A program made the translations under genes and the position numbers. A DNA stretch of 64,000 bases from Terriglobia bacterium. Lineage in GTDB: Bacteria; Acidobacteriota; Terriglobia; JAIQFV01. The first letter of the stretch is position 1, and each line of letters starts with the position of its first letter. The DNA is taken from the NCBI GenBank assembly GCA_020072965.1, contig JAIQFY010000019.1:1-64000 (forward strand), given 5' to 3'. The notes under the pieces were generated by a model. That model was not told the origin of the DNA. It ran no database searches and saw only the letters and a program-made list of their open reading frames with translations. This document shows positions 7,301 through 30,922 of this stretch, one piece after another.

Positions 7301-7632
7301 TCGTCGCGCCGCGAACCGAACTGGAGCGGACCCTGGCCAGCCTCTGGCAAAGTGCACTCAATGTGGAAAGGGTCGGATTGGAAGACAACTTCTTCGAACT
7401 CGGCGGGCATTCCCTGCTTCTGGTTCAAATCCATGGAAAACTGCGGTCGCTTCTCCACCGCGACCTGCCCATCACCGAGCTGTTCCAATACCCAACTATC
7501 CGTGCGCTGGCCGATCACCTGACCGAGCCAGCGTCTACTGAGACTTCGACAAAGAACATACGGCGGCGCGCCGAGCGGCAAATTGCAGCCCGGTCACGGC
7601 GTGTGGAACTCGAGAAGGAACTCGACAAATGA
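4351..7632 (+). CDS. NRPS module 1: C-A(Thr)-PCP
   Basis: 1093 residues. The start is TTG 4351 with AGAGGAG ten bases upstream; the next in-frame ATG lies inside the condensation domain. Domains: condensation (about 20-440, HHALLDG near 152-158), adenylation (about 470-990, YTSGSTGKPKG near 620, GITETTVHVTY as A5, TGDLARF as A7, NGKVDRLAL as A10) and a carrier domain (DNFFELGGHSL, Ser near 1020). Aligning by eye to GrsA, the ten pocket residues read D-F-W-N-I-G-M-V-H-K, the textbook threonine code. The protein ends in a basic, helical tail (residues about 1068-1093) of the kind used for docking to a following PKS. Its stop overlaps the next start (ATGA). A condensation domain in the first module suggests either N-acylation of Thr or that another enzyme loads first. 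Confidence 0.95.
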   Translation: MKTQEKETKTGQGRIENSYPLSPMQQAMLFNYLDDRHSGVDIEQIVSTLRERVRSDHFQQAWRRVVERHPILRTTFEWEGLADPIQIVHSEAPPAFKEFDWHSLSRAEQEERLISYLESDRHRGFLLNEAPLMRIALFRLGDADYRCVWTFHHALLDGRSFPLVLKEVFTFYEAFCEGREITLDLPRPFGDYIRWLQSKDHSQSEAFWREMLKGFRAPTPFNVPRDSHQDSDTRNHGAQEIRLSKELTETVNSFTQENGLTLNTLIQGAWSLLLHHYSGEEDLVFGATRACRRTALEGAESMVGIFINTLPVRVQVTSDLMLIPFLKGLRTQQVGLREYEHTPLHLVQGWSGVPRGKPLFESIVVFENYLLNTALRAGGGQWLHREFRYIGHTNFPVTVIGYSDAELLLRIEYDRRRFDDSTVERMLGHLKTLLVHMAASPNQKLAEVKMLTHEEYQILVEDWNKGTLDFSKGKCIHQLFEDQVTRSPEKVALICDGERLTYSELNARANRLAHGLREFGVKPDVIVGMYMERSVEMVLGILAILKAGGAYLPIDPAYPQERLNFMLEDSHATVLLTQKELAARVTAPQLRILCVDEFDARPDVDNPQSGTGADNLAYVIYTSGSTGKPKGVGITHYNVARLFQATDPWFHFDSGDVWTLFHSCAFDFSVWEIWGSLLYGGRLVVVPYMVSRSPDAFYELVAKEQVTVLNQTPSAFRQLIQAEEMAEKKKQLALRLVIFGGEALEMQSLKPWFERHGDQRPQLVNMYGITETTVHVTYRPLSSGDVSRGSVIGIPIPDLQIYILDPQRNPVPLGIPGEMHVGGAGLARGYLNRPELTAQRFIVNPFGKDASERLYRTGDLARFLPGHDIEYLGRIDTQVKIRGFRIELGEIESLLCQHPSIREAVVIAREDVPGDKRLVAYVVPHAASPAINELHTHLRRHLPDYMVPSAFVPLKTIPLTNNGKVDRLALPAPDKTQRDLEKPFVAPRTELERTLASLWQSALNVERVGLEDNFFELGGHSLLLVQIHGKLRSLLHRDLPITELFQYPTIRALADHLTEPASTETSTKNIRRRAERQIAARSRRVELEKELDK

Positions 7633-13600: not shown

Positions 13601-13889
13601 AACTCCCCTTGAAGAATCAGTTGCGAGTGTCTGGCAGGAGCTCCTCGGCATTGACCGTGTTGGAATCCACGACGACTTCTTTGATCTGGGGGGACATTCG
13701 CTCACGGCCATTCAGGTCAAATCGAGACTCCTCGAAAGAATGCACGTCGATTTGCCTTTACGCAGCCTGTTTGAATCTCCCACGGTGGCAAGCCTCGCGG
13801 AGCAAATCGAAGCCATTCGCTGGTCGAAACAGAGCGAGAGTGCTTCTGGAGGCAACCTGGAACACGACCGCGAGGAAGTGGAGATATGA
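7629..13889 (+). CDS. Hybrid PKS-NRPS: KS-AT-ACP-C-A(Gly)-PCP
   Basis: 2086 residues, starting at the ATG of an ATGA overlap. Ketosynthase: TACSTSL (Cys near 188), EAHGTGTPLGDP and KSNIGHLDSAAG supply the Cys-His-His triad. Acyltransferase: GHSVGEY (Ser near 637) and HAFH near 733, which points to malonyl-CoA. Acyl carrier: MGFESLFL (Ser near 969). No KR, DH, ER or methyltransferase lies between AT and ACP, so the beta-keto group should stay. Condensation: HHIVCDG near 1163. Adenylation: YTSGSTGKPKG near 1635; pocket residues read D-I-L-Q-L-G-L-I-W-K, the glycine code. Carrier: LGGHSLTAIQ near 2021. The C-terminal tail is acidic (DREEVEI), as expected for the partner of a TubC-type docking domain, which the next protein carries. 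The stop overlaps the next ATG. Confidence 0.95.
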   Translation: MKENPKSKSIGDVAIIGMAGRFPGARNIESFWHNLKNGVESIRFFTDQELAAAGVDAELLANPSYVKARGLLEDIDMFDAGFFGILPREAETMDPQQRLFLETSWEALENAGYDSEKYDGAIGLSAGVNMSTYLFANLGADREYIESLVSSTDAGAFQIYLANEKDHLTTRVAYKLNLKGPAMTVQTACSTSLVAVCQACQSLLSYQCDMVLAGGVAVTVPQMAGHLYREGAILSPDGHCRAFDAQAQGTLFGSGVGIVMLKRLEDAVDDGDSILAVIKGFALNNDGSSKVTYTAPSVDGQADVIALAQALAGVDADTISYVEAHGTGTPLGDPIEIAALTQAFRQSTDKKGFCGVGSVKSNIGHLDSAAGVTGLIKTVLALQHKLIPPSLHYTQPNPKIDFANSPFYVVARPTEWPRNDTPRRAGVSSFGIGGTNAHLVLEEAPPREPSGPSRSRQLLLVSARSDTALDQATTALATHLRTHPDLSLADTAYTLQVGRRAFPHRRMAVCGDAKDAVEVLEKRDSKRVFTQTAEQHDPPVMFMFPGQGAQYVNMGAEIYRTEPVFKEAMDRCAELLHPHLGLDLRSILYPPSDQVASMGERLLQTQITQPALFAIEYALAQLWISWGVRPVAMIGHSVGEYVAGCLAGVFPLEDALPLVADRARLVQAQPRGAMVAVRLPESEILRLLNADLSIATINSPSLCVVSGPFGAVEAFEQRLKEAGVVNTRLHTSHAFHSAMMEPVLAPFTEILNKVRLQEPKIRYVSNVTGRWVTAAETTDPHYWAGHVRQAVRFADGVALLLEDPHSVLLEVGPGHTLTALTRQHPACARKQVVLASLPTAEDPEQHSVLTALGRLWMAGVTVDWPAFYAQEQRRRVALPTYPFERQRCWIEPDRSVGHRASLSLAAAAPTESLPAAVPGEPTGIISAGPPATRKEQIVLQLKDLLRELSGIDCSDVENNTTFVEMGFESLFLTQVSAEIEKRFGLRIAFRQLLGEFSTLDKLADQLESVSKPAVAAPPALAAVSADLTGQRAPLTEAQREVWLATMMGDEASCVFNQSCTLILRGLLRREALDRALEGLISRHEALRSTFSELGDFQQIATELMVELPFYDLSTIEPSQRDEQVAAMLAGEASKPFDLVHGPVLRARVVKLEDQRHVLMFTIHHIVCDGRSLALLLHDLGELYSAECQGLPSPLPPPRSLREYAQEGARLIQSPEYAEAEAYWLKQFVDEPPALELPTDRPRPPVKTFRGALINLVVPPALCQELRRASARYGCTLFTTLLAAYFLFLNRLTDQNEIVAGVPVASPGVEGKDRLVAHTVNFLPVRSRLADSMRWTEHLEAVKQVFLEAYEHRHVTYGTLIQKLKLGRNLSRMPLVSAAFNFAHGKQTLRFFELQTQLGLNPYSFTNYDLNFDFSEDEDSLELDCIYNADLFELNTIQRWMDHLQTLLESIAAHPTDPIAALSLLSERDQHRLLVEWNSTRADYPRDVTLTQLFEAQAARTPQRVAVVAEDKTLTYSQLNTRANQLGAALRACGVRPDSIVGLYLERSSNLLVALLGVLKAGGTYLPLDPAFPRERLAFMVEDSQASVLLTDLQMQPTLPPHSARVLLLDDPALNSLGEENLPVESGPEHLAYVLYTSGSTGKPKGVQISHRAVVNFLHSMQREPGLTADDILLAVTTLSFDIAGLELYLPLMVGARVVVASRETAADGIRLADLMERSAATVMQATPATWRVLVESGWKGNPSLKLLCGGEALSHELAQQLLSRCGELWNLYGPTETTIWSTAARVTASDEKISIGRPIANTEIYILDSNLQPVPVGVAGELHIGGDGLARGYLNRDELTAERFINHPFNSAPRARLYKTGDLARYRADGNIEHLGRLDFQVKLRGFRIELGEIESLLRQQSAVREAVVVVREDTPGDQRLVAYLLAQPGQTPDFAELRQYLRTSLPDYMVPSFFVLLDTLPLTPNGKIDRRALPVPEGKRLVEISFVAPRTPLEESVASVWQELLGIDRVGIHDDFFDLGGHSLTAIQVKSRLLERMHVDLPLRSLFESPTVASLAEQIEAIRWSKQSESASGGNLEHDREEVEI

Positions 13890-16800
13890 CCCCTGTCGAG
13901 ATTCTGTCACATTTGCGCAGCCTGGATATCCGGCTCCGGGTCGAGGATGAAAAACTCCGCGTAAACGCGCCCAAGGGGGCTCTGACACCTCAACTGCGCG
14001 CAGAATTGGAGAGCCACAAGGCTGAGCTCGTTGCTTATTTGCGATCTGTCGAAGCCGCTGCGCTGTTTCAGACGCAGCCATTGCGGCCAATCCCCAGGCA
14101 GATCCACCACGTGCTTTCCTTCGCACAACAGCGCCTCTGGCTCCTTGACCAAATGGAACCCGAAAGTCCTGTCTACAACATTTCAGGCGGGACGAGTCTC
14201 GCAGGTCCGCTTAAAATAGCCGCGCTTGAACAAGCCCTCAACGAGATCATTCGACGTCACGAGGTTTTACGTACCACTTTTGGTGAATCGGACGAACAGC
14301 CTGTCCAGAACATCGCCCGAGCAATGAGGGTGGAAGTCCCTCTCGTGGATTTGGGTTCTCTCACAAGGGAGCAGCGGGAACTTGAGATCCAGAGAGTTGC
14401 AGTCGAGGAGGCTCAAAAGCCATTTAATCTAACGGTCGGCCCTCTTCTGAGAACTGTGTTGCTACGATTGGGTGATGACAACCACGTACTTCTCTACACG
14501 ATGCATCACATTGTTTCCGATGCCTGGTCCATTGGCATTTTTATGAGGGAATTGACAACTTTATACGGAGCCTATTCCGCCGGAAAGCCGTCGCCTCTCA
14601 GCGAACTCCCGATCCAGTACGCTGATTTTGCCCACTGGCAGCGTGAATGGCTGCAGGGGGAGGTATTGAATTCGCAGTTGGCATACTGGAAGCGGCAGTT
14701 GGCGGGGGCTCTCCAGGTTCTGGAACTGCCCACGGATCGGCCTCGTCCACGTGTTCAGACCTTTGTTGGCGCGGTGGCCACGCTGGACCTTCCCAAGGAA
14801 TTGTCTTACGAGCTTCGGGGCTTGGCGCGCAGTGAAGGGGTCACATTGTTCATGCTCTTGCTGGCGGCCTTCCAGACCCTGCTCTACCGCTACAGCCACC
14901 AGGAAGATGTCGTGGTGGGCTCCCCTATCGCCAATCGCAACCGAGTGGAGATCGAGCCGCTGATCGGCTTCTTCGTCAACACCCTGGTATTACGCACCGA
15001 TCTGTCCGGCAACCCGACCTTCCGCGAACTGCTGGCACGAGTGCGCGAGGTCGCCCTGGGGGCCTACTCCCATCAGGATCTGCCTTTTGAAAAACTTGTC
15101 GAAGAACTTCGACCTGAACGCAGCTTGAGTCATTCGCCCTTGTTTCAAGTTGCCTTCTCTATGGAGAATGCTCCAGGTTCCCCGCTTGAATCGGCTGGAC
15201 TGACGCTCACCCCGCTGGAGTTGGAGTGGAAAACTTCCAAGTTTGATCTCACTCTATTCATGCATGAGAGCCCCACGGCACTGCGAGGCGTCCTGGAATA
15301 CAACACTGATCTGTTCGACGGATCGACGATGGGGCGAATGCTGTCGCACTTCCAGAGTCTGCTGGAGAACTTGGTGGCCGACCCCGGACAGCGTATTTCG
15401 CAGCCGTCACTGTTAAACGACGCCGAATGGCAGAAGGTAGTAGTGGAATGGAATCAGACTGCTTCTGAATATCCTCGGGACAAGTGTATCCACCAGTTGG
15501 TTGAAGCCCAGGTGGAGCGCACGCCCGATGCTGTGGCGGTTGTTTACGGAGAGAGTGGTTTGACCTACCGGGAGCTCAACACAAAGGCCAACCAGTTGGC
15601 TCACCACCTGCGCGGCCTAGGCGTTGGGCCGGATATTGCCGTCGTCCTTTTCATGGAGCGATCCGTGGAAATGGTTATCAGCCTCCTGGCAATTCTCAAG
15701 GCTGGAGGCGCTTACGTTCCACTCGACACAACCTATCCTCCCGAACGTATAAAGGTCATGCTGGAGGATGCAAAAGGCAGAGTCTTGATCACCGATCGGC
15801 CGGTGACTGCGGAATTGCTCTCTCATCCTATCCAAATCCTGCGCCTGGACAAGGACTGGGATACGATCGGCCAAGAGCCCATCGAGAATCCAGTCAATCA
15901 GACCAATGGGGAGAGCTTGGCATATGTGATTTACACTTCGGGGTCGACAGGAAAGCCCAAAGGGACGTGCATCCCCCACTGCGCCATTAACCGCCTCCTC
16001 TCGAACACCAACTATATTGAAATTCAATCTTCGGACAATGTGGCGCAGGCGTCCAATGCTTCCTTTGACGCCGCTACGTTTGAAATCTGGGGAGCTCTGC
16101 TCAGTGGAGCACGGTTAGTCGGCATTCCGAGGGACGTCATCCTGTCACCTCAGGCCTTCGCAAAGGCGCTCCATGATCAGAATATCAGCATCATGTTCCT
16201 CACCACGGCCTTGTTCAACCAGATGGCTCGCGAGGCCCCTGGGGCGTTCGCCCGTCTCCGCTGTCTGCTGTTTGGGGGTGAGGCTGTGGATCCGCGGTGG
16301 GTACGAGAGGTTTTACACACCCACCCGCCACAGCGGCTTTTGCATGTTTATGGACCCACGGAAACTACCACGTTTGCCACATGGCATCTTGTAAACGGTG
16401 TGGAGCCGGACGCAGTAACTATTCCCATTGGCCGGCCCATATCCAACACGGAGGCTTACATCCTGGATCCAAACCTCCAGCCTGTGCCGATTGGACTGAG
16501 TGGGGAACTGCATCTGGGTGGGGATGGCCTGGCACGGGGCTACCTGAACCGTCCGGATCTCACGGCAGAAAAATTCATCCCTCATCCGTTCAACCAAGTC
16601 CACGGCGCTCGCCTCTACAAGACCGGGGACCTGTGCCGATTCCTGGAGGACGGCAGTATCGAGTTCCTGGGACGCATCGACACTCAAGTCAAGATCCGCG
16701 GGTTCCGGGTGGAGTTGGAAGAAATCGAATCCGTACTGGACCAACATCCCGGCGTGCAGGAGTGTGTAGTGGTGATGCGGGAAGATACCCCGGGAGACAA

Positions 16801-17365
16801 ACGGCTGGTCGCATATCTGGTCCCCCGGAACCAGGGGAAGCCTGTAGTCAGCGAACTTCGCTCTCTTCTGAAGCAAAAACTGCCGGACTATATGGTGCCG
16901 GGTACTTTCGTCATTCTGGATTCACTCCCGCTCTCTCCTAATGGCAAGGTAGACCGCCGCGCGCTGCCGATACCTGACGCATCGCGACCGGATCTGGAAG
17001 AAAAGTACATTGCCCCGCGCAATCCCGTCGAGGAGGTGCTGGTGGGCATCCTGGGCGAAGTGTTGGGGCTGGAGCGAGTCGGGATCCATGATAATTTCTT
17101 TGAACTGGGAGGACACTCCCTGATGGCCACCCGGGCCGTCGGTCGGATTCGTGACGCGTTTGAACTCGAACTCCCTCTTCGCCGGCTGTTCGAAGCCCCC
17201 ACCGCTGCGGAACTGGCAGACCTCCTCCTGCAGGATACATCGGTTCGCGGGAACATTGAAAAGAGAGCCCAGGTCCTGTTGAGGCTGGCGGAACTCTCCG
17301 CGGAGGAAACTCACGCGATGCTCAAAGAGAAATCCTCGGCCACGGGCAAGGGTGGTATTCAATGA
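13886..17365 (+). CDS. NRPS module: TubC docking-C-A(Ile/Val)-PCP
   Basis: 1159 residues. Residues 1-55 (VEILSHLRSLDIRLRVEDEK and on to KAELVAYL) are a TubC-type N-terminal docking domain, which pairs with an acidic C-terminal tail such as the one on the preceding protein. Condensation domain with HHIVSDAWS near 206 (Ala in place of the usual Gly after Asp, a tolerated variant). Adenylation: YTSGSTGKPKG near 685; pocket reads D-A-F-F-L-G-V-T-F-K by my alignment, a branched aliphatic pocket most like Ile or Val. Carrier: LGGHSLMATR near 1076. The C-terminus (AELSAEETHAMLKEK) has the helical shape common before a following NRPS subunit. The start and stop both overlap neighbours by 4 bases, so the four genes are probably translationally coupled. 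Confidence 0.94.
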   Translation: MTPVEILSHLRSLDIRLRVEDEKLRVNAPKGALTPQLRAELESHKAELVAYLRSVEAAALFQTQPLRPIPRQIHHVLSFAQQRLWLLDQMEPESPVYNISGGTSLAGPLKIAALEQALNEIIRRHEVLRTTFGESDEQPVQNIARAMRVEVPLVDLGSLTREQRELEIQRVAVEEAQKPFNLTVGPLLRTVLLRLGDDNHVLLYTMHHIVSDAWSIGIFMRELTTLYGAYSAGKPSPLSELPIQYADFAHWQREWLQGEVLNSQLAYWKRQLAGALQVLELPTDRPRPRVQTFVGAVATLDLPKELSYELRGLARSEGVTLFMLLLAAFQTLLYRYSHQEDVVVGSPIANRNRVEIEPLIGFFVNTLVLRTDLSGNPTFRELLARVREVALGAYSHQDLPFEKLVEELRPERSLSHSPLFQVAFSMENAPGSPLESAGLTLTPLELEWKTSKFDLTLFMHESPTALRGVLEYNTDLFDGSTMGRMLSHFQSLLENLVADPGQRISQPSLLNDAEWQKVVVEWNQTASEYPRDKCIHQLVEAQVERTPDAVAVVYGESGLTYRELNTKANQLAHHLRGLGVGPDIAVVLFMERSVEMVISLLAILKAGGAYVPLDTTYPPERIKVMLEDAKGRVLITDRPVTAELLSHPIQILRLDKDWDTIGQEPIENPVNQTNGESLAYVIYTSGSTGKPKGTCIPHCAINRLLSNTNYIEIQSSDNVAQASNASFDAATFEIWGALLSGARLVGIPRDVILSPQAFAKALHDQNISIMFLTTALFNQMAREAPGAFARLRCLLFGGEAVDPRWVREVLHTHPPQRLLHVYGPTETTTFATWHLVNGVEPDAVTIPIGRPISNTEAYILDPNLQPVPIGLSGELHLGGDGLARGYLNRPDLTAEKFIPHPFNQVHGARLYKTGDLCRFLEDGSIEFLGRIDTQVKIRGFRVELEEIESVLDQHPGVQECVVVMREDTPGDKRLVAYLVPRNQGKPVVSELRSLLKQKLPDYMVPGTFVILDSLPLSPNGKVDRRALPIPDASRPDLEEKYIAPRNPVEEVLVGILGEVLGLERVGIHDNFFELGGHSLMATRAVGRIRDAFELELPLRRLFEAPTAAELADLLLQDTSVRGNIEKRAQVLLRLAELSAEETHAMLKEKSSATGKGGIQ

Positions 17366-20300
17366 GCGGTCCTTCAAAGCGCAGCTTTGAGTTCTCGGAA
17401 GAGAAACTTGCGCTGCTCAAAGCACTGGCCCGGGAAGAAGGCCTGGAAGACTCGCTCGCCGGGAGGATTCCTCCGAGAGGAAAGGTCGGCCCTGCTCCGT
17501 TGTCTTTTGCGCAGGAGCGACTGTGGTTTCTGGAGCAACTGGAACCGGGCAGCCCCGTTTACAACGTCTCGATGAGGCTGCGGCTACTGGGTCCGCTGCA
17601 GGTGGAGGCCCTGACGCGGAGTCTGAATTCCATTGTGCAGCGGCACGACATTCTGCGAACGCACTTTGAGTCGAGGGATGGCGAGCAGACGCAAGTCGTC
17701 GAGGCGGGATGTGAGGTGACGCTGCCGGTAGTGGATTTGGAAGGGCTGGAAGCGGGACAGCGGGAGGCCGAGTTCGAGCGGCTAGCCCTGGAGGAGGCGC
17801 AGAAACCCTTTAATCTCGGCTGCGCTCCCTTGTGGCGGGTGTCGCTGGTCCGCCTGGGCAAGGCGGAACATGTCCTGCTGCTGACCCAGCATCACATCGT
17901 GTCGGACGGTTGGTCGCTGGGTGTGTTCTTTCACGAGTTGGAAGCGAACTACGAGGCCTTCTGCTCCAGCAGGCCTTCTCCACTGCCAGCTCTCTCGCTC
18001 CAATATGCCGCTTATGCGGAATGGCAGCGGCAATGGTTGCAAGGCGAATTCCTCGAAGAACAACTTGCCTATTGGAAGCACCAGTTGGCAGGGGCTCCTG
18101 CTGTTTTGGAACTTCCGATGGATCGACCTCGCCCGGCAGTGCAGAGTTTTCAGGGGACGGTGCGGGGACGGTTGTTAAGCCCCGCTCTGTTGCAGGGGCT
18201 GAAGGCGTTGAGTCAGCGACAAGGTGTGACCCTGTTCATGACCCTGCTGGCGGCGTTCGAGACCTTGTTGTCCCGCTACACCGGCCAGAGCGACATCGTG
18301 GTGGGCTCTCCCATTGCCAACCGTCACCGCCCCGAGATCGAGCCCCTGATCGGGTTCTTCGTGAACACCCTGGTGTTGCGGACGGATCTCTCGGGGGACC
18401 CCAGTTTTGAGCAGCTGTTAGGCCGGGTGCGGGAGGTGGCACTGGGGGCTTATGCCCACCAGGACTTGCCGTTTGAAAAGCTGGTGGAGGAGTTGAGGCC
18501 GGAGCGCGTCCTCAGCCACAACCCGCTGGTGCAGGTGATGTTCGCGCTCCAGAATGCCCCCCCACCCCCATTGCAGTTGGGCGATCTGAAGATGCGCCTC
18601 GAAGCGGGCAGCAGTGGCACCGCGAAGTTTGACCTGACCCTGTTTCTTCTGGAGCAGGAGAATGGTCTGCAAACGGACATCGAGTACAACACCGACCTGT
18701 TTGACGAAGCTACCATCGAGGGATGGCTCCTCCACTGGGAGACACTGCTGGAAGGAGTCGTGGCCCATCCGGAATACCGCCTCTCGCAGTTGCCCCTGCT
18801 GAGCGGGGACGAGCGGCAGCAGGTGCTGGTCGATTGGAATCAGACTGTCTCCGGATATCCCCGCGACAAATGTGTCCAGCAGTTATTCGAATCGCAGGTG
18901 GAGCAAACCCCCGATGCGGTGGCCGTGGTGTCCGGAGACGAGCAGTGGACTTACCGGGAGCTGAACCGCCGCGCCAACCAGCTGGCTCATTATTTGAAGA
19001 AGTCGGGGGTGGGCGTCGAGGTGCCGGTCGCCATGTGCCTGGAGCGGTCTCTGGACATGGTGGTGTCCACGCTGGCCATTCTGAAGGCAGGCGGGGCTTA
19101 TGTACCGTTGGACTCGGACTATCCTCGAGAGCGTCTGGAGTTCATGCTGAAAGACACCGGCTCCCCCGTGCTGTTAACCCAGAGTGCGCTGTTGGAAAAG
19201 CTTCCCTCGGACCAAGCCCGCGTCGTCTGCATCGACACCGACCGTCCGCTCATCGCCCGGGAGAGCCGCGAGAATCCAAACTGTGAAACCGGGCCCCGGA
19301 ACCTTGCTTACGTCATTTACACATCCGGTTCCACGGGCCGCCCCAAGGGCGTGATGGTGGAGCATCGGTCCGTGGTCCGCCTGGTCAAAGAGACCAACTA
19401 CGCTCACTTCGGCCCGAACGAAGTCTTTCTGCAGCTGGCGACTATTTCATTCGATGCCTCCACTTTTGAATTGTGGGGAGCTCTTCTGAATGGCGCCCGG
19501 CTCGCTTTGATGCCGGAGCAGACTCCATCCCTCGAAGAATTGGGACGGGCGATCAGGCAATTCGGTGTCACCACCTTGTGGCTCACCGCCGGGCTCTTTC
19601 ACCTCATGGTGGAACGGCGCCTGGAGGATTTGAAACCGCTGCGTCAACTCCTGGCAGGTGGAGACGTCCTGTCGCCTCCTCATGTCCGGAAGGTCATTCA
19701 GGGGCTGGAAGAATGCACGCTCATTAACGGATACGGACCCACTGAGAACACCACCTTTACCTGTTGTAACGTCATGCGGCCGGGTGATCATATCGCCGAC
19801 ACCGTGCCGATCGGGCGACCCATTTCCAACACACAGGTGTATCTGCTCGATCCTCACTTTCAGCCCGTGCCCATCGGAGTTCCCGGAGAGCTCTGCATTG
19901 GGGGCGACGGGTTGGCCCGCGGTTATCTCAACCAGCCGGAATTGACCGCCGAAAAATTCATTCCCAACCCCTTCAGTAGCGAGCCTGGCGCCCGCCTTTA
20001 CAGAACGGGAGACCTCGTCCGCTATCGGAGGAGCGGCGCCATTGAATTTCTGGGTCGGGGCGATCTGCAGGTAAAGATTCGTGGCTTTCGAATTGAACTG
20101 GGCGAGATCGAGACAGTGCTCCGGCAGTACGAGGGGGTCGCCGACGCGGTGGTGGTGGCGCGAGAAGAGAAGGCAGGCGACAAGCGCCTCGTCGCCTACA
20201 TCGTGGCGAAGGGCAAAACGCAGCCGGGCTTCGACGAGCTACGCCATTTTTTGAAGGCAAAACTGCCCGACTATATGGTGCCCTCCAGCTTTGTGCTGCT

Positions 20301-23300
20301 GGAGGCTTTCCCGCTGACTCCCAACGGCAAGGTGGACCGCCGCGCGTTGCCCGAACCCGAGGGTCCGCGCCTCGCCGCAGGTCAGGACTTCATCGCTCCC
20401 CGCAATCCTGCGGAGGAAATGCTGGCCGGACTCTGGGCCGAGGTGCTCGACATTGAGCGCGTCGGCATTCACGACAACTTCTTTGATCTCGGCGGCCATT
20501 CTCTTTTGGCGACGCGAGTGATTTCGCGAATCCGTGAGCTCATGCAGGTTGACCTGCCTCTGCAGCGCCTGTTTGAGTTTCCCACGGTCGCTGGGCTGGT
20601 GGAGTGCATCGAAGCGGCACGCCGCGGCGGTCCGGTCCGACCCACCCTCCCGCTCCAAGCAGTCCCCCGCAATCAGAATCTTCCCCTGTCGTTTGCGCAG
20701 CAACGGTTGTGGTTCTTAGAACAGTTGGAGCCGGGCAGTGCAGGCTACAACATTCCCATGGCGGTGCAACTGAACGGGCCGTTGAACGTGCAGTCTTTGG
20801 AACGGAGTCTGAACTCTGTCGCGCAACGGCACGAGGTCTTGCGGACGCACTTTGAGACGCGGGATGGTGAGCCCGTCCAAGAGGTGGAGGCCGCCTGTGA
20901 GGTGACGCTTCCCGTGGTAGATCTGAAAGGACTGGAAGCAGGACAGCGGAAGACAGAGTTCCAGCGGCTGGCCCTGGAAGAGTCACAGAAACCATTTGAT
21001 CTGCACCATGCTCCCCTGTGGCGCGCCAAGCTGGTCCGTCTGGGCGAGGCTGAGCATGTCCTGCTGCTGACCCAGCACCACATTGTGTCCGACGGTTGGT
21101 CGATCGATGTGCTCTCCCATGAGTTAGGGGTGCTCTACGAGGCCTTCTGCTCCAATAAGTCCTCTCCACTGCCTGATCTCTCGCTCCAGTATGCTGATTT
21201 TGCCGTGTGGCAGCGGCAATGGCTGCAGGGGGAAGTGTTGGAGTCACAGTTGGCGTACTGGAAGCGGCAGTTGGCGGGGGCTCCCGCTCTTCTGGAGCTG
21301 CCGACGGACCGGCCCCGTCCGCCCGTTCAGACCTTCGTTGGTGCGGTGGCCACACTGGACCTTCCCAAGGCATTGTCCGAGCAGCTTCGGAGCCTCGCGC
21401 GCAGCGAAGGCGTCACGCTGTTCATGCTCCTGCTGGCGGCCTTCCAGACCCTGCTCCACCGCTTCAGCCGCCAGGAAGATGTGGTGGTGGGCTCCCCCAT
21501 TGCCAATCGCAACCGGGCGGAGATCGAGCCACTGATCGGCTTCTTCGTCAACACTCTGGCGTTGCGCACCGATCTGTCCGGCCGCCCGACCTTCCGCGAA
21601 CTCCTGGCACGGGTGCGTGCAGTCGCCCTGGGGGCCTATTCCCATCAGGATCTGCCTTTTGAAAAACTCGTCGAAGAGCTTCGGCCTGAGCGCAGCTTGA
21701 GTTACTCACCCTTGTTCCAGGTCGCCTTTGCTTTGGAGAATGCTCAAGCTTCCCCGCTCGAGTTGGCTGGACTGACGCTCACCCCGTTGCAGGTTGAGTG
21801 GAAGAACTCCAAATTTGATCTCACGGTGTTCATGCATGAGAGCCCCGAGGGACTGCGAGGCGGAGCGGAATACAATACCGATCTTTTCGACACCTCCACA
21901 ATCGAGCGAATGCTGTCGCACTTCCAGACTCTCCTGGAGGGGATAGTGGCCGATCCCACGCAGCCGATTGCCACCTTACCCTTGCTGACCGGGGCTGGAC
22001 GCCTGCAGTTGCTCGTGGAGTGGAATCAGACCGCTACTGAGTATCCGAGAAATCGCTGTGCTCATGAGCTGTTCGAAGCGCAGGTGGAGCGGACCCCGGA
22101 GTCATTGGCTGTGAAGTTCGGAGAACAACAGCTGACTTATAGGGCGCTGAACCAGCGCGCCAATCAACTGGCCCGTCATTTGAAGCAGTGCGGAGTGGGC
22201 CCCAATGTGTTGGTAGGGATCTGCACGGAGCGCTCCCCGGAGATGGTCGTAGGCATTCTGGGCATCCTCAAAGCGGGCGGAGCATATGTCCCCCTGGATC
22301 CTGCTTATCCGAGAGAACGGCTGGCGTTCATGCTGGAGGAAACGCGGACCCCTGTGCTGTTGACACAGCAGCGATTGTGCTCACTGATCCCGCCGCTCGG
22401 GATGAAGATCCTCTGTTTGGACACAGACTGGGACTCCGTCGCCGGCGAGAGTGAAGAGAATCTCGAATGCGGGGTGACGGCGGAGCACCTGGCATATGTG
22501 ATTTATACTTCCGGATCCACGGGTCGTCCCAAGGGGGTCATGATTCAAAACTCCGGGCTGGCAAACCTGCTGAACTGGCATCAGCGCGAATATGCGGTCA
22601 CCCCGGATGACCGGGCCACCCTTCTGGCGAGCCCGGCTTTCGACGCCTCGGTGTGGGAGTTGTGGCCGTATCTCACGGCGGGCGCGAGCATTCATATCGC
22701 CGATGATGAAACCCGCCTGACCGCGCCCAAACTCGTCCAATGGCTGACAGACGAAAGAATCACTATCACCTTCTTGCCGACACCGCTGGCCGAAGTCGTG
22801 CTTCAGATCCCGTGGCCCTCGAATTCGCCCTTGCGCGCGCTGTTGACCGGCGGAGATCAACTCCGCCAACGCCCTGAGCGGTCCCTTCCCTTCGGGTTGT
22901 TCAATCATTATGGCCCGACCGAGAACACGGTTGTGACCACCTGGGGTCGAGTGGAACCGGGACAGAAAACCGACTCCCCTCCTCCGATAGGCCGGCCGAT
23001 CGCCAATACCCGGGTTTATCTACTCGACGCTTCTTTGAATCCGGTCCCCGTCGGGGTGCCAGGGGAGATGTATGTCGGCGGGGAGGGCCTGTCCTGCGGA
23101 TATTTGAACCGACCGGACTTGACCAAGGAGATGTTTTTGCCCGATCCCTTCAGTGCTGATCCGTCTTCCCGCCTCTATAAGACCGGCGATCTGGCGCGGC
23201 ATCTCCCCGACGGCAACATTGAATTTCTCGGCCGCGTCGATCAGCAAGTGAAGATTCGAGGGTTTCGCATCGAGTTGGGTGAGATCGAGACAGTGTTGCG

Positions 23301-23880
23301 GCAGCACGACCGGATCGCAGAAGCCGTGGTGGTTGCACGAGAGGATAAAACGGGGGAGAAGCGCCTGGTCGGTTATGTCGTGTCCAAGGGACCGGAGGCG
23401 CCAAGTTTCGGGGAGTTGAGAACCCTCTTGAAATCGAAACTGCCGGACTACATGATTCCCTCCAGCTTCATGCTGCTGGAGACTCTGCCGCTGACCCCCA
23501 ATGGCAAGGTCGACCGCCGCGCTCTGCCAGCGCCGGAAAGCGCACAACTGGACAGCAGTCAACACTACATCGCACCACGCACGCCGCTGGAAAGGGCCCT
23601 GGCGGAGATCTGGGCGGAGGCACTGGGGCTGGATCAGGTTGGAATCCATGATAACTTCTTTAATCTTGGCGGCCATTCTCTGCTGTCCATGAAGGTGGTC
23701 TACGAAGTGGAAAAGCGCATCGGACTGCACATCAACCCGAGGCAAATGATTTTCGAGACCGTGGAACAAATTGCAGCCGCCTGTGAATCAATGAAAAGGC
23801 AGACGCCGGAAGTGCAGGCAGAAGGATTCAAGGACAGGCTGCTGGGCGCTCTCAAGGGGGCTTTCTCACGGGGTGACTAA
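17362..23880 (+). CDS. NRPS bimodule: C-A(Val)-PCP-C-A(Leu)-PCP, no release domain
   Basis: 2172 residues, last synthetase of the operon. First module: C with HHIVSDGWS near 176, A with YTSGSTGRPKG near 654 and pocket D-A-F-W-L-G-G-T-F-K (valine type), carrier LGGHSLLATR near 1047. Second module: C with HHIVSDGWS near 1239, A near 1716 with pocket D-A-W-F-L-G-H-V-V-K, closest to the leucine code D-A-W-F-L-G-N-V-V-K, carrier LGGHSLLSMK near 2104. About 65 residues after the last carrier serine the protein ends. There is no thioesterase, reductase, terminal condensation or epimerase domain. The second condensation domain is a mosaic: its first half matches the first C domain of this protein and its second half matches the C domain of the preceding protein. 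Release must occur in trans; the hydrolases downstream are candidates. Confidence 0.94.
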   Translation: MSGPSKRSFEFSEEKLALLKALAREEGLEDSLAGRIPPRGKVGPAPLSFAQERLWFLEQLEPGSPVYNVSMRLRLLGPLQVEALTRSLNSIVQRHDILRTHFESRDGEQTQVVEAGCEVTLPVVDLEGLEAGQREAEFERLALEEAQKPFNLGCAPLWRVSLVRLGKAEHVLLLTQHHIVSDGWSLGVFFHELEANYEAFCSSRPSPLPALSLQYAAYAEWQRQWLQGEFLEEQLAYWKHQLAGAPAVLELPMDRPRPAVQSFQGTVRGRLLSPALLQGLKALSQRQGVTLFMTLLAAFETLLSRYTGQSDIVVGSPIANRHRPEIEPLIGFFVNTLVLRTDLSGDPSFEQLLGRVREVALGAYAHQDLPFEKLVEELRPERVLSHNPLVQVMFALQNAPPPPLQLGDLKMRLEAGSSGTAKFDLTLFLLEQENGLQTDIEYNTDLFDEATIEGWLLHWETLLEGVVAHPEYRLSQLPLLSGDERQQVLVDWNQTVSGYPRDKCVQQLFESQVEQTPDAVAVVSGDEQWTYRELNRRANQLAHYLKKSGVGVEVPVAMCLERSLDMVVSTLAILKAGGAYVPLDSDYPRERLEFMLKDTGSPVLLTQSALLEKLPSDQARVVCIDTDRPLIARESRENPNCETGPRNLAYVIYTSGSTGRPKGVMVEHRSVVRLVKETNYAHFGPNEVFLQLATISFDASTFELWGALLNGARLALMPEQTPSLEELGRAIRQFGVTTLWLTAGLFHLMVERRLEDLKPLRQLLAGGDVLSPPHVRKVIQGLEECTLINGYGPTENTTFTCCNVMRPGDHIADTVPIGRPISNTQVYLLDPHFQPVPIGVPGELCIGGDGLARGYLNQPELTAEKFIPNPFSSEPGARLYRTGDLVRYRRSGAIEFLGRGDLQVKIRGFRIELGEIETVLRQYEGVADAVVVAREEKAGDKRLVAYIVAKGKTQPGFDELRHFLKAKLPDYMVPSSFVLLEAFPLTPNGKVDRRALPEPEGPRLAAGQDFIAPRNPAEEMLAGLWAEVLDIERVGIHDNFFDLGGHSLLATRVISRIRELMQVDLPLQRLFEFPTVAGLVECIEAARRGGPVRPTLPLQAVPRNQNLPLSFAQQRLWFLEQLEPGSAGYNIPMAVQLNGPLNVQSLERSLNSVAQRHEVLRTHFETRDGEPVQEVEAACEVTLPVVDLKGLEAGQRKTEFQRLALEESQKPFDLHHAPLWRAKLVRLGEAEHVLLLTQHHIVSDGWSIDVLSHELGVLYEAFCSNKSSPLPDLSLQYADFAVWQRQWLQGEVLESQLAYWKRQLAGAPALLELPTDRPRPPVQTFVGAVATLDLPKALSEQLRSLARSEGVTLFMLLLAAFQTLLHRFSRQEDVVVGSPIANRNRAEIEPLIGFFVNTLALRTDLSGRPTFRELLARVRAVALGAYSHQDLPFEKLVEELRPERSLSYSPLFQVAFALENAQASPLELAGLTLTPLQVEWKNSKFDLTVFMHESPEGLRGGAEYNTDLFDTSTIERMLSHFQTLLEGIVADPTQPIATLPLLTGAGRLQLLVEWNQTATEYPRNRCAHELFEAQVERTPESLAVKFGEQQLTYRALNQRANQLARHLKQCGVGPNVLVGICTERSPEMVVGILGILKAGGAYVPLDPAYPRERLAFMLEETRTPVLLTQQRLCSLIPPLGMKILCLDTDWDSVAGESEENLECGVTAEHLAYVIYTSGSTGRPKGVMIQNSGLANLLNWHQREYAVTPDDRATLLASPAFDASVWELWPYLTAGASIHIADDETRLTAPKLVQWLTDERITITFLPTPLAEVVLQIPWPSNSPLRALLTGGDQLRQRPERSLPFGLFNHYGPTENTVVTTWGRVEPGQKTDSPPPIGRPIANTRVYLLDASLNPVPVGVPGEMYVGGEGLSCGYLNRPDLTKEMFLPDPFSADPSSRLYKTGDLARHLPDGNIEFLGRVDQQVKIRGFRIELGEIETVLRQHDRIAEAVVVAREDKTGEKRLVGYVVSKGPEAPSFGELRTLLKSKLPDYMIPSSFMLLETLPLTPNGKVDRRALPAPESAQLDSSQHYIAPRTPLERALAEIWAEALGLDQVGIHDNFFNLGGHSLLSMKVVYEVEKRIGLHINPRQMIFETVEQIAAACESMKRQTPEVQAEGFKDRLLGALKGAFSRGD

Positions 23881-24002: not shown

Positions 24003-24803
24003 ATGCAACCTCTTTTTTTTGGAAAACCGGACAAGCCGCTCTTTGGCATCTACCATCCCCCGTTGACGCGAGCGGACCGCGGTACAGGAGTCGTTCTTTG
24101 CAGCACCTTCGGGAGTGAGTACCTCAATTCACATCGCGCCCTTCGACAGTTCGCTGTCCGACTCTCCCGGGTCGGATTCCATGCCCTCCGTTTTGATTAT
24201 TACGGCAGCGGCGACTCGGGAGGGAACAGCGATGAGGGGGATGTGGATCAATGGAAGAAGGACATTTCATTTGCCATCGAAGAGCTGAAGAACAGGGCCG
24301 GTCTCTCAAACGTCTCACTTGTCGGCCTGCGGGTGGGCGCCACACTAGCGACTATGGTGGCCGGCGAGCGAAACGATGTGGAGAGCCTGATGCTCTGGGA
24401 ACCCGTCCTCAACACCAGGGGATACATCGAGGAATTGGGGATCCAGCACAGAGACTGGCTGGGTGAGCAATTGTTTTCGGAATTGAACTTGTCCCACCAA
24501 AAGGATGGGGGGGTCGAAATAATCGGGTTCCCCTTGACGAACCGGTTTCGGCTGGGCCTTGAATCCATTGACTTGCTGTCCCTTGAAAGGTGCGCGGCTA
24601 AACATGTTTTGATTGTGCGAAGCTCGAACGGCGCCAAGGATCAATCCTTTGTTGGCCGATTGGAAGAACTGGGCGCTTCCCCTAATTATATGGAAATTGC
24701 CACACAGAACCGATGGCTTCAAAGAGAAGGGATCGATCAAGTCGTCGTGCCGAATGAAGTATTGGATGCCATGATTCTGTGGATGACGGAAATCCACGTA
24801 TGA
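24003..24803 (+). CDS. Alpha/beta-hydrolase-fold protein lacking a Ser nucleophile
   Basis: 266 residues, ATG at 24003, 122 bases after the last NRPS gene. The fold is recognisable: an N-terminal sheet region, FDYYGSGDSGG near 64-74, then the position of the nucleophile elbow as VGLRVGATLA near 107-116. The elbow reads G-L-R-V-G, so Arg110 stands where Ser is expected. I see no C-terminal Asp-His pair either. This resembles one of the two hydrolase-like proteins that accompany exosortase systems, but no exosortase gene is present here. It may be a non-catalytic partner or a lyase-like variant. The stop overlaps the ATG of the next, better conserved hydrolase, so the two proteins are likely to be made together and may act as a pair on the NRPS product. 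Confidence 0.8.
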   Translation: MQPLFFGKPDKPLFGIYHPPLTRADRGTGVVLCSTFGSEYLNSHRALRQFAVRLSRVGFHALRFDYYGSGDSGGNSDEGDVDQWKKDISFAIEELKNRAGLSNVSLVGLRVGATLATMVAGERNDVESLMLWEPVLNTRGYIEELGIQHRDWLGEQLFSELNLSHQKDGGVEIIGFPLTNRFRLGLESIDLLSLERCAAKHVLIVRSSNGAKDQSFVGRLEELGASPNYMEIATQNRWLQREGIDQVVVPNEVLDAMILWMTEIHV

Positions 24804-25738
24804 AAGAGAGTGCTGTTCTTTTTGGAGATCACAACAACCTGGTTGGGGTCATAACCGACCCCGGTCCCGCCCCACCTCCCCAACAACCGACCGCCGTTCT
24901 CCTCCTCAACGCAGGTTTCGTTCACCGGGTGGGCCCTGCCCGCATTCACACCAAGATGGCGCGGCGCCTGGCTGAAGCGGGCTTCCCTGTTTTGCGGTTC
25001 GATTTCTCGGGCATCGGGGACAGTGAGGCCAGGAAGGATGCGTTGCCGTATGAGGTCAGCACCATCCATGAAGCCCGGGAAGCCATGGATCTCATGAGTG
25101 CGGCCAAGGGGGTCAGCCGATTCGTCCTGGTGGGAATCTGCTCGGGGGCGAGCAATTCCCTTCGCATTGCCCTCTCTGATCCTCGAGTCGTGGGCGCGGT
25201 TCCCATTGAAAGCTACCCCTTCAGCACGACGGGATACATTGTGAGCACCTATGTCCGGCGATTTTTCCGCTGGCGCATGTGGTGGAACCTTCTGACCGGG
25301 AAGTTACATCCCCGGAAGTCGCTGCAATCTCTTGCAGGCATGATCTTCTCCAAAGTCAAGCCGGGCCGTGAGGAGACGACCCCGGCGTGGCAACCCCCGT
25401 CACCAAAAGAGATTATCGCGGATCTTCGGACCCTGGTTCGGCGCGGCGTCCGACTCTGCTTCATCAACTCCGGGTTAGGCCCCGCTCATTATTACTACCA
25501 CTCCCGCCTGCAGCGTGAAGTCGAAGCTTTCAGTCATCCGGGTGAAGTTCGAGTCTTATCGTTCGACGAGACCGATCACACCTTTACTCCCCTCTCTCAG
25601 CAGGAGCTGTTAATCAAGACGATTTGCGACTGGACTTATGACAACTTCGCTGAAGGGAAGGGGATTTCGGGCCAAGGAGTGGCCATTGAGGAATCGGGCA
25701 TCAATACGCCCTTAAGGGCGCCACAATCGCGTCTATAA
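24800..25738 (+). CDS. Alpha/beta hydrolase with Cys nucleophile elbow; candidate release enzyme
   Basis: 312 residues from the ATG at 24800, which overlaps the previous stop (ATGA). An in-frame GTG at 24779 is less likely. FDFSGIGDSEA near 68-77 is the oxyanion-side motif. The elbow reads G-I-C-S-G-A (Cys114), and a C-terminal ETDHTF (Asp259/His260) completes a possible Cys-His-Asp triad. Cys elbows are known in dienelactone hydrolases and in one class of exosortase-associated hydrolases. As the synthetases carry no thioesterase, I infer that this protein may hydrolyse or cyclise the peptide from the last carrier domain. No signal peptide, so it should be cytoplasmic. It closes the biosynthetic operon; the next gene lies 224 bases on. 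Confidence 0.82.
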   Translation: MKESAVLFGDHNNLVGVITDPGPAPPPQQPTAVLLLNAGFVHRVGPARIHTKMARRLAEAGFPVLRFDFSGIGDSEARKDALPYEVSTIHEAREAMDLMSAAKGVSRFVLVGICSGASNSLRIALSDPRVVGAVPIESYPFSTTGYIVSTYVRRFFRWRMWWNLLTGKLHPRKSLQSLAGMIFSKVKPGREETTPAWQPPSPKEIIADLRTLVRRGVRLCFINSGLGPAHYYYHSRLQREVEAFSHPGEVRVLSFDETDHTFTPLSQQELLIKTICDWTYDNFAEGKGISGQGVAIEESGINTPLRAPQSRL

Positions 25739-25962: not shown

Positions 25963-27141
25963 ATGTCGATTCCAAAATCCCCACACAAAATTCTGACGCT
26001 CTTTGGAACCCGGCCTGAGGTCATCAAGCTGGCGCCGGTGATTCGGGAACTCGAGGGCCGCCCTCAAATATTTCGCACAATCAACGTGGCTTCCGGGCAG
26101 CATGCGGAACTGTTCCATCCCTTCGTCCGTCTGTTTGACATCCGGATCGATCATAACCTGGAGATCATGCGGGAGAATCAGACGCCCAATCAGGTGTGCG
26201 CGCGGGTTCTCAGTGAGTTTGAACCCATCCTGGCCCAACAAGAACCAGACCTTCTTCTCGTCCAGGGAGACACGACCACCGCCATGGCAGGGGCCCTGAC
26301 GGCATTCCATCGACGCATTCCAGTGGGCCATGTCGAAGCGGGCTTAAGGTCAGGAAATGTGCTCAGTCCTTATCCCGAAGAGATGAACCGGCGCCTCATC
26401 ACGCGCCTGGCTACCTACCACTTCGCGGCGACCGAGCACAATCGAGAGACGTTGCTCCAGGAAGGGATTGCCGCAGATTCTATCTTCGTCACCGGGAATC
26501 CGGTTGTTGATTCTTTGAACGCCATCCTCGCGCGTAAGCCACGGCTGCCCCGGATCGAAGAAATACTGTCCTCGACCAGCGGGATGAAACGTATCGTCCT
26601 CACGACACACCGCCGCGAAAGCTTCGGAGAGATCATGGAGGGAAATCTCAGGGTGCTGCGGCGGTTCGTCGAACGGCACGATGGAGTGGCGCTGATCTTT
26701 CCTGTGCATCTGAACCCCGCCGTGGTTGAGAAAGCAAAGTCGATCCTGTCGGAACATCCGAGGATCCATCTGACCTCTCCGCTTGGTTACGAGGAGTTTG
26801 TCTTTCTGCTGTCTCAGGCATGGTTGATCGTTTCAGATTCCGGCGGAGTACAGGAGGAGGCGCCGACCCTGGGCAAGCCGCTGCTCATTCTGCGGGAGAA
26901 TACGGAGCGTCCCGAGGCGATCCAGTCGGGAGTGGCACGTCTGGTGGGAGGCGACCCCCTCCGCCTCGAGGAAATGCTGGAAGAGGCGATCGGGGATGAA
27001 AGTTGGATCACAAAGGTTGGGAAGACCGAAAACCCCTTTGGCTGCGGAGACAGCGGGAAGCGCATCTGTCAAATACTGGAAAGCTTGGTGACGGGCCCGG
27101 CTTGGAAGGGACACGGACGAACACAGACGAACGCGGATTGA
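25963..27141 (+). CDS. wecB: UDP-N-acetylglucosamine 2-epimerase (non-hydrolysing)
   Basis: 392 residues, ATG 25963; no strong ribosome binding site is seen. Interconverts UDP-GlcNAc and UDP-ManNAc in the cytoplasm for surface polysaccharide synthesis. Motifs: GTRPEVIKLAPV at 14-25, QGDTTTAMAGALTAF near 104, GHVEAGLRSG near 124, THRRESFGE near 211, and the UDP-binding SDSGGVQEEAPTLGKPLL near 290, followed by RENTERPEA. All are where the family has them, and the length is normal. It stands alone after the NRPS locus, with a repeat-filled gap on either side, so a role with the peptide is not supported. Confidence 0.93.
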   Translation: MSIPKSPHKILTLFGTRPEVIKLAPVIRELEGRPQIFRTINVASGQHAELFHPFVRLFDIRIDHNLEIMRENQTPNQVCARVLSEFEPILAQQEPDLLLVQGDTTTAMAGALTAFHRRIPVGHVEAGLRSGNVLSPYPEEMNRRLITRLATYHFAATEHNRETLLQEGIAADSIFVTGNPVVDSLNAILARKPRLPRIEEILSSTSGMKRIVLTTHRRESFGEIMEGNLRVLRRFVERHDGVALIFPVHLNPAVVEKAKSILSEHPRIHLTSPLGYEEFVFLLSQAWLIVSDSGGVQEEAPTLGKPLLILRENTERPEAIQSGVARLVGGDPLRLEEMLEEAIGDESWITKVGKTENPFGCGDSGKRICQILESLVTGPAWKGHGRTQTNAD

Positions 27142-27526: not shown

Positions 27527-30500
27527 TTACTTCTTCCCTTTCAGCTCTTCCTGTAATACCTCCACCGCCTTCTTCAATTGCGCATCCAAGCCAGTGAGAA
27601 AATCGGCCGGGGTGTTGTCGACATAAACGTCCGGCGGAACGCCGTAGTTTTCCAGATTCGTTCCATTCACGTTCCACAGGCCGGAGCCGGGGGTGCGGAT
27701 GGCAGAGCCGTCCATCAGGGTGTAAGAGCCGGTTCCGATGACAGCACCATAGGTGGTGACTCCAACGACCTTGCCGAGTTTCAGGGTGCGGACTCCATCG
27801 GGGAAGACCTCAGCATCCGACGTCGAGCGTTCGTTCTGCATGACGACCAGCGGGCCGAAGAAGGCGCGCAGCGGTCGCGTCACCTGGAGGGAATCGCGCA
27901 CGCGAGTGTACTGGTACTGCTTCTGCTGGAGAATCTCGAGCAGTTCCTGGTCGATTCCGCCGCCCGGGTTGAAGCGCTGATCGACGACCAGGGCCTTCTT
28001 GAAATGCAGTTCCGCGAGGTCGCGCTCGAATTTGCGGAGCGAGTCCTGGTTCATCTGGCGAATGTGCAGGTAGCCGATCTCGCCATTGGACCACTTTTCG
28101 ACCATGGCGCGCCGGTCGGCCACCCATTTGTCATATTGCAGGGTGCCATAGGCCCCGGCGTTTACCGGATCGACCTTGGTTTTCCAGGCCCCCTCCACCG
28201 CGGGCTTGGAGTTGACGGTGAATTCGAATTTGCGTCCGGCCGCCGCATTGTAATATTGAAAGTAGTTATCGCCGGCCTTCACGGGATGGTCGTTAATGGC
28301 GAGTATGAAATCCCCTTCCTTGATCTTGACATAGTCGTGGTCAGCCGGGCCTTTCTTGTAAATCCAGGACACCTTGTAGTAACCGCTCGGATCGGAGGCC
28401 AGCTCAAACCCGGGATAGCGCGTCTGGACTTCAGCGCGTCCGCCCGGTCCACCGCCGGCGCTGATGCCGGTGTGCGAGGCGTTGAGCTCTCCGATCATCT
28501 GGCTGACGATATTGTGCATTTCTTCCTGGTCCGCCGTGTAGTCAATCAGGGGCTCGTAAGTCTGCTTCATCTTGTTCCAATCGACCCCGTGCATCTGGGG
28601 ATCGTAAAAGCGGAACTTCATGACGCGCCAGCTCTCGTTGAACACCTGCTGGCGTTCGGCGCGATGATCTACTTCCACCTTTGCGGTGAAGTTCAACCGG
28701 CGGGCCGATCGTCCACCTCCGGGCCCGACGGCGCTGGGCGCCGCACCGGGTGCGCCCGCGGCGCCGGGACCTGCGCCGGCACCCGCCTCGCCGCCACCAC
28801 CTCCGATTCCAATGGAATAGATGCCGCGCGCCTGGCGGTAGAACAGGGTTCGGCCATCCTTTGAAAACTGGAGGGACGAAATTCCGCCGAAGCCACCGAA
28901 GCCGCCACCGCCCTCTTCTTCACCGGAAGGGCCCGCCTGGGTTATTTTAGTCAACCGCTCACCATCTTCCTGGATTGTATAAATCGCTTGGCTGGGACGG
29001 CCATCCACCGTGCCCACGACTACAAACGCGTAGGTCTTGCTGTCGGGAGAGACCACGACGCTCGTAATGTTATCCGACAGCCGAGTGAGCTGATGGGCTC
29101 GACGGGCGATGCCCTCCCATTCGATCTTGACATCCACCTTGCGCGGCGCCCCCTCGGGGCCGCCTCCGGCTGCTTCACCGCCGGCGGATCGGCGCATGCC
29201 TGCGGGACGGGCGGCAGCTTCGGCCGCGGCCGCCGCTTCCTCGTCATCAATGCCACGGTCGAAGTTGTTCTTCTCTTCCGGAGTCAGTGCCACGCTGAAG
29301 ATCTGGACCCTCGATTCCCCGGCCCCGCCAATATTGCCGGTGTCCATCCCTGACAAATAAACAATCTTTTTTCCGTCGGGCGCCCACACCGCATTGGCAT
29401 CACTGTAGGTGGTTTCGTCGGTGAGGCGATGTTCTGCGCCGCCGTCGGAAGAAATCACAACGGTGTGCGGTAACAAGGTCTCCTGGGCCTTGGTGAATGA
29501 AATCCACTTCCCGTCGGGAGAGAACTGGGGATTGCCGATGGCTCCGCCTCCAAACCCTGTCACCGGGCTTGAAGCGAGCACATCGGTCTTCGCCGTCTCG
29601 ATCGTGTACTTGTACAGCTTGTGATCAGTGGCAGTATAGATCAGCGATTTCGAGTCCGGCGCCCACTGGATCTGGAGCTTCTGGGAGTCGCTGCCAGAGA
29701 CCTGCTTCCAATCCTTCTCGGCGGCGCGAGGCGCGCACAACCACACTTCGTCGCGTCCCGACTTGTCGCTCACAAAAGCGATCCACTTGCCATCGGGGGA
29801 CCATTGCGGGCCGGTCTCGCGCGAGTAACTCTCCGTGATGCGGGTGACGTCGCCGCGATCGGTGGCGATGGAAAACAGCTCGCCGTGGGCGGAGATGACG
29901 GCGCGCTTGGTGGACGGGGAGAGATCAAAGCTGTCGGCTTCGCTAGTGAGGGTGAGGGTCTCGAGATTGTTCTCCTTGTCGTCCGAGGCGAGATTCAATT
30001 TGACTTCCGAAGTCTTTCCACTGGCGGTATCCAGTTTCCAGATTCCAAAGTTGTCTTCATAGACGATGACTTTTCCATCGCTCGAAATCGAAGGCCAGAA
30101 AAGCGAGCCGTCCTTGTGATGGGTTACCTGGATGGGCTTTCCGCCGTTCTCTGAGACTTTCCAAATGTTGTTGCCGCTCTTGAGGGCCTCCTTGGATCCG
30201 GCCTTCGCCACCACGTCGCGGTCGGAAACGAAATAGATGTCGCCGTTGTTTCCATACATTGGCCAGAAGTTGTTGGGCTTTTCATTGTCGGGAGTCGTGT
30301 CATCAAGGATTCGCTTGAAGGTTTTCTTCTGTGTGTCCATCACCCAGAGATCGGCGGAGTAGCTGCCACGGTAATGTTTCCGCCACCACACCATGGGATG
30401 GCGGTTGAAGGCGAACTTCGACCCGTCGGGGGAGTAACTGCCCCAGTAGCCCCAGTCGGTATCGAGGCGGGTCTCCAGGCCACCGGTCACGGGCACTTCC

Positions 30501-30922
30501 CACAGGCTGACGGTTCCGGGATAAACAATCTTTTCACCACCACGCACCGAGTTGAAGATCACCCGCTTGCTGTCGCGTGTCCATCCGACCACGATGTCGG
30601 CCGCCGTGTTGAAGGTGAGCTGTTTGGCCTCGCCTCCCTCCGCCGGGATGACAAAGACATCGTAGTTGCCATAGCGATCGGAGGAGAAGGCGATCCACTT
30701 GCCGTCCGGAGAGAAGCGCGGATAAACGTCGCGCGCCTTATGCACGGTGAGGCGGACGGGATTCGAGCCCGTCTCATCGGCCACCCAGATGTCTCCCAGG
30801 TAGCTGAACGCGATTTTTCCATTGTGATAGTCCGGATGGCGGGCCAGCTTCACTTCCTTGGCCAGGATGAAAGAAGTCATGGCACACAGGCAAATCGCCA
30901 CGAGAGTGATTTTGCGAATCAT
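27527..30922 (-). CDS. Tricorn protease homolog (PD40 propeller, PDZ, S41 peptidase)
   Basis: 1131 residues with an N-terminal signal peptide (IRKITLVAICLCAMTSFILA), so exported. From about residue 25 to 640 the sequence repeats PD40/WD40-like blades (FSPDGKWIAFSSDRYGNYDV, WSPDGKWIAFVSDKSGRDEV). A PDZ-like part follows (KIKEGDFILAINDHPV near 880). The S41-type peptidase is at the C-terminus: GYLHIRQMN, ALVVDQRFNPGGGID, then NERSTSDAE with the likely nucleophile Ser near 1029. Gly/Ala-rich low-complexity runs near 555-590 and 705-750 are unusual for the archaeal tricorn but common in bacterial homologs. Role: degradation of peptides in the periplasm, inferred from the family. The gene faces the upstream epimerase and has palindromes on both sides. 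Confidence 0.9.
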   Translation of the reverse strand: MIRKITLVAICLCAMTSFILAKEVKLARHPDYHNGKIAFSYLGDIWVADETGSNPVRLTVHKARDVYPRFSPDGKWIAFSSDRYGNYDVFVIPAEGGEAKQLTFNTAADIVVGWTRDSKRVIFNSVRGGEKIVYPGTVSLWEVPVTGGLETRLDTDWGYWGSYSPDGSKFAFNRHPMVWWRKHYRGSYSADLWVMDTQKKTFKRILDDTTPDNEKPNNFWPMYGNNGDIYFVSDRDVVAKAGSKEALKSGNNIWKVSENGGKPIQVTHHKDGSLFWPSISSDGKVIVYEDNFGIWKLDTASGKTSEVKLNLASDDKENNLETLTLTSEADSFDLSPSTKRAVISAHGELFSIATDRGDVTRITESYSRETGPQWSPDGKWIAFVSDKSGRDEVWLCAPRAAEKDWKQVSGSDSQKLQIQWAPDSKSLIYTATDHKLYKYTIETAKTDVLASSPVTGFGGGAIGNPQFSPDGKWISFTKAQETLLPHTVVISSDGGAEHRLTDETTYSDANAVWAPDGKKIVYLSGMDTGNIGGAGESRVQIFSVALTPEEKNNFDRGIDDEEAAAAAEAAARPAGMRRSAGGEAAGGGPEGAPRKVDVKIEWEGIARRAHQLTRLSDNITSVVVSPDSKTYAFVVVGTVDGRPSQAIYTIQEDGERLTKITQAGPSGEEEGGGGFGGFGGISSLQFSKDGRTLFYRQARGIYSIGIGGGGGEAGAGAGPGAAGAPGAAPSAVGPGGGRSARRLNFTAKVEVDHRAERQQVFNESWRVMKFRFYDPQMHGVDWNKMKQTYEPLIDYTADQEEMHNIVSQMIGELNASHTGISAGGGPGGRAEVQTRYPGFELASDPSGYYKVSWIYKKGPADHDYVKIKEGDFILAINDHPVKAGDNYFQYYNAAAGRKFEFTVNSKPAVEGAWKTKVDPVNAGAYGTLQYDKWVADRRAMVEKWSNGEIGYLHIRQMNQDSLRKFERDLAELHFKKALVVDQRFNPGGGIDQELLEILQQKQYQYTRVRDSLQVTRPLRAFFGPLVVMQNERSTSDAEVFPDGVRTLKLGKVVGVTTYGAVIGTGSYTLMDGSAIRTPGSGLWNVNGTNLENYGVPPDVYVDNTPADFLTGLDAQLKKAVEVLQEELKGKK

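Follow-up and report, generated by a model that had tools for sequence, protein, structure and literature searches.

How does a peptide synthetase without a thioesterase release its finished product? The question is raised by a cluster in a Terriglobia bacterium (assembly GCA_020072965.1), found in a window of 64,000 nucleotides (contig JAIQFY010000019.1, positions 1 to 64,000 of the forward strand), in which the last synthetase is followed by two related hydrolase-fold proteins. One of these, protein B, has a conserved Cys where the catalytic residue belongs, and the other, protein A, has an Arg there. The original prediction was that a Cys-type release enzyme with an inactive partner takes the place of a thioesterase. 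This proposal fits everything that was tested computationally, and dozens of similar clusters in at least nine bacterial phyla carry the same pair at the same place, suggesting that it is probably an undescribed means of off-loading.

The gene pair and its cluster

All genes from the phosphopantetheinyl transferase, which would activate the carriers, to gene B lie on the same strand (Table 1). The last NRPS gene ends 39 aa after its second carrier (T) domain, with no thioesterase (TE) or reductase domain and no GxSxG or GxCxG motif behind it. The genome (5.9 Mb, estimated 100% complete) has all five of its condensation domains in this one cluster, and it contains no PF09721 exosortase and no PF00975 thioesterase over the cut-off. 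Genes A and B overlap by ATGA. The 122-nt gap in front of A folds better than shuffled sequences (z -3.1) and holds a strong hairpin without a T run; A and B may be separately regulated.

Table 1. Positions of the cluster genes, key codons and neighboring features in the window
Positions	Strand	Feature	Description
1925-2929	+	4'-phosphopantetheinyl transferase	Start codon uncertain
4351-7632	+	First NRPS gene	C-A-T; start codon uncertain
7629-13889	+	Hybrid PKS-NRPS gene	KS-AT-T-C-A-T
13886-17365	+	NRPS gene	TubC docking domain-C-A-T
17362-23880	+	Last NRPS gene	C-A-T-C-A-T
23752-23778	+	Signature in the terminal T domain	FETVEQIAA
23881-24002		Gap between the last NRPS gene and A	122 nt
24003-24803	+	Gene A	266 aa; predicted pseudo-hydrolase partner
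24330-24332		Arg110 codon of A	Elbow GLRVG
24801-24803		Stop codon of A	TGA
24800-25738	+	Gene B	312 aa from the ATG at 24800; predicted catalytic Cys release enzyme
24800-24802		Start codon of B	ATG
25139-25141		Cys114 codon of B	Elbow GICSG
25577-25579		His260 codon of B	
25963-27141	+	UDP-GlcNAc 2-epimerase (WecB)	Starts 224 nt after B
27527-30922	-	1131-aa protein	TolB-like propeller repeats and a C-terminal S41 peptidase domain, resembling a tricorn-type protease

Both proteins are alpha/beta hydrolases, as evidenced by sequence, structural models and structural comparison. Pfam assigns Hydrolase_4 to A and Abhydrolase_1 to B. AF2 models are confident (pLDDT 92.0 for A and 83.8 for B) and place residue 110 or 114 at the strand-turn-helix elbow, and both models match the thermophilic lipase TTL, feruloyl esterases and PET46 (VIA-align Z about 26 to TTL lipase for both). 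Profile alignments put Cys114 and His260 of B on the catalytic Ser and His of the MHETase/PET46 group, and Arg110 of A on the Ser. A and B are paralogues (hhalign probability 99.4%, E 5e-22), and where B has DHTFTP, A has NRWLQ, so A has lost both Ser and His.

Across 102 A and 102 B sequences, the Cys and His of B are invariant (102/102 for both), whereas Arg holds in 97/102 and Glu39 in 100/102 A proteins, a pattern that excludes chance for the elbows. The original prediction needs correction in two respects. It paired Asp with His in B, but Asp259, which adjoins His260 and is Asp in 66/102 sequences, is not the usual catalytic acid. The usual acid position after the seventh strand reads SGLGP in this protein, leaving a Cys-His pair without a clear acid, whereas part of the B family has the acid (SEGDxGLDY type). 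Moreover, the original prediction treated the presence of the pair on an NRPS operon as an oddity, but in this branch of the family it is the rule.

Distribution of the pair and a signature in the terminal carrier

Among 396 genomes of the phylum, only 11, including that of the window, have a close B relative, always with A beside it or fused to it, and the three closest follow a type I PKS. A scan of viral contigs for B found nothing. A scan of 84,980 species genomes gave 80 nearest relatives, spread over Pseudomonadota, Planctomycetota, Gemmatimonadota, Myxococcota, Chloroflexota, Acidobacteriota, Zixibacteria, Nitrospinota, KSB1 and unassigned lineages. A and B are adjacent or fused to each other in nearly all relatives, in either order, and are divergent or split in a few.

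NRPS/PKS genes lie in 64 of the 80 loci, and this association is spread over the whole B tree, although the loci are not independent, as several come from sister species. In 58 loci the megasynthase is directly upstream on the same strand, and in 55 of these it ends 12-94 aa after its last T domain, too little for a thioesterase. In two (L056 and L101; individual loci carry the prefix L), protein A itself forms the C-terminus after the T domain, and a third such fusion is on the minus strand of L098. This is exactly the thioesterase position. Of the other 16 loci, seven end less than 1 kb upstream of the pair. The remaining nine lack a recognized NRPS/PKS gene by the strict test, although one (L052) does hold a T-bearing gene and others sit in XrtA polysaccharide loci (L075 and L109). 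In the Pirellulaceae, the pair lacks a neighboring NRPS in L088 and L113 (L088 has an MMPL-type membrane protein upstream), while the close relatives L081, L090 and L116 have NRPS/PKS genes.

Terminal PCP-type T domains next to the pair differ from internal ones in helix IV. Internal domains read LFExPTVAxLA, whereas terminal ones read TLEQIA, TLGQLA or, in the window, FETVEQIAA. The motif [not P][TSN][LV]xQ[LIVM][ASG] is present in 48/54 terminal T domains, against 4/71 internal and 1/18 TE-coupled T domains from the same set of genomes. A looser Q motif alone appears in 4 of 19 TE-coupled T domains, so the stricter motif without Pro is the discriminating one. Because the sequences are related and the motif was chosen after seeing the data, the Fisher P values (5e-23 and 1e-10) overstate the evidence. 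Of the four internal exceptions, two sit right before a second copy of the pair in two Gemmatimonas loci (L066:15811-17492 and L071:15866-17499), where the second pair follows a short A-T protein whose T domain also has the Q signature. A third is the last T of the last PKS gene in L118, a cluster in which, as in L096 (both Accumulibacter), the pair lies at the 5' end with a PPTase. These observations suggest that the pair and its carrier have evolved together, although PKS-type terminal ACPs (L021, L022/L044 and L093) lack the motif. Many NRPS/PKS clusters from uncultured and underexplored phyla lack a recognizable thioesterase, so their release step and product form cannot be predicted. A conserved pair plus a carrier signature gives a rule for finding such lines, for predicting where they end and for engineering release.

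Relation to known hydrolases and thioesterases

The nearest named families are TIGR03100 and TIGR03101, hydrolases 1 and 2 of the exosortase A system, which form a homologous gene pair in the same order. The resemblance noted in the original prediction is a real but distant homology. Protein B scores 98.4 bits against a TIGR03100 cut-off of 168.45, and protein A scores 91.6 bits against a TIGR03101 cut-off of 202.75, with the match limited to residues 3-145. NRPS-type members checked against TIGR03100 in 15 genomes (76-110 bits) likewise did not reach its cut-off. Three genomes carry both a true TIGR03100 gene (322-338 bits) and the NRPS-type pair (87-102 bits), so these are distinct paralogous systems. 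The elbows are nevertheless shared, as two true-type loci (L171 and L172) have an Arg elbow in hydrolase 2 and the true hydrolase 1 of L171 has a Cys elbow (GLCDG). A reading as an exosortase-system pair was rejected because the genome has no exosortase and both proteins miss the family cut-offs. Similarly, 25 of 48 genomes with the NRPS-type pair have no exosortase.

Type I thioesterases (PF00975) share the fold and the place at the end of the assembly line, and the curacin TE matches the B model (Z 21.5, rmsd 2.9, 201 residues). However, neither protein matches PF00975, and here two proteins stand in for one domain, one having lost its catalytic residues and the other using Cys. Cys in place of Ser is also found in the thioesterases of SulM (PMC11298585) and ObiF, which appear to be single TE-type domains in cis without a pseudo-hydrolase partner. 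The tandem TE domains of lines such as those for lysobactin and teixobactin likewise place two hydrolase-fold units at the end, but both are probably PF00975-type domains fused in cis, neither being an Arg-elbow pseudo-hydrolase. No description of a pseudo-hydrolase/Cys-hydrolase pair with its own carrier signature was found in the literature searched, which was limited to open-access papers.

Proposed roles in off-loading

Taken together, these data are best explained by a two-protein off-loading module that replaces the C-terminal thioesterase of this NRPS/PKS line. B probably takes the chain from the terminal carrier onto Cys114, activated by His260, and then passes it on, whether by hydrolysis, cyclization or transfer. 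A, conserved around Arg110 and Glu39, would be the non-catalytic partner that sits where a thioesterase would sit and presents the terminal carrier, recognized by its TLEQIA-type helix, to B. The release role, the acyl-Cys intermediate and a physical complex of A, B and T are inferred from gene order, the three fusions, residue conservation and the carrier signature, without biochemical data or a model of the complex, and the absence of the usual catalytic acid from many B proteins, including this one, weighs against the proposal.

A variant of this explanation, which remains tentative, is that the pair is an acyltransferase that moves the chain through Cys114 to an acceptor such as a sugar or polysaccharide rather than releasing a free acid or ring. 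Homologous pairs sit in the two XrtA polysaccharide loci and next to polysaccharide export genes after NRPS genes (in Variovorax and in L073 and L078), glycosyltransferases occur in 14/66 and polysaccharide deacetylases in 10/66 megasynthase loci, and in the window an epimerase follows B. Cys nucleophiles in this fold may also serve acyl transfer in PhaC polyester synthases, although this is an analogy only. On the other hand, most megasynthase loci show no recognized sugar genes within the flanks examined, and the epimerase may be a chance neighbor.

Two other roles seem less likely. Free-standing hydrolases next to synthetases often act as type II thioesterases that clear wrongly loaded carriers, in which case the product would leave by another route. 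This is improbable here, given that seven loci carry a separate PF00975-type thioesterase as well, mostly right beside the pair, that A is fused at the terminal T position, that the signature marks the last T domain, and that the terminal genes have no other release domain. Least likely is that the pair tailors or breaks down the released product, as an esterase, deacylase or resistance enzyme, and never touches the carrier. The closest solved folds are indeed lipases and feruloyl esterases, but the fusions to the T domain and the carrier signature argue against this role, as do homologous fused A-B proteins in clusters with a free carrier protein and an amino acid--carrier ligase, where no NRPS product is expected.

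The latter clusters occur in Azospirillum, Mycetohabitans and others (L032-L034, from Mycetohabitans, Azospirillum and Rhizobium plasmids, and L024, L025 and L027). They are conserved, with the amino acid--carrier ligase or its neighbors, namely a carrier protein, acyl-CoA dehydrogenase, DUF1839 and glycoside hydrolase family 2. They have no NRPS, the loader is the ligase, and their carriers lack the Q signature. A common theme would be action on carrier-bound acyl groups, a biochemical role that is also proposed for the unexplained exosortase-associated hydrolases. More speculatively, and with less support than the module itself, a widespread two-component system with its own carrier-domain recognition code may serve NRPS/PKS lines, free aminoacyl carriers and XrtA polysaccharide loci, handing the acyl group to an acceptor such as a surface glycan rather than to water. 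In one polysaccharide locus, from Shinella (L039:7119-8891), the A half has a Ser elbow (GHSIG) instead of Arg.
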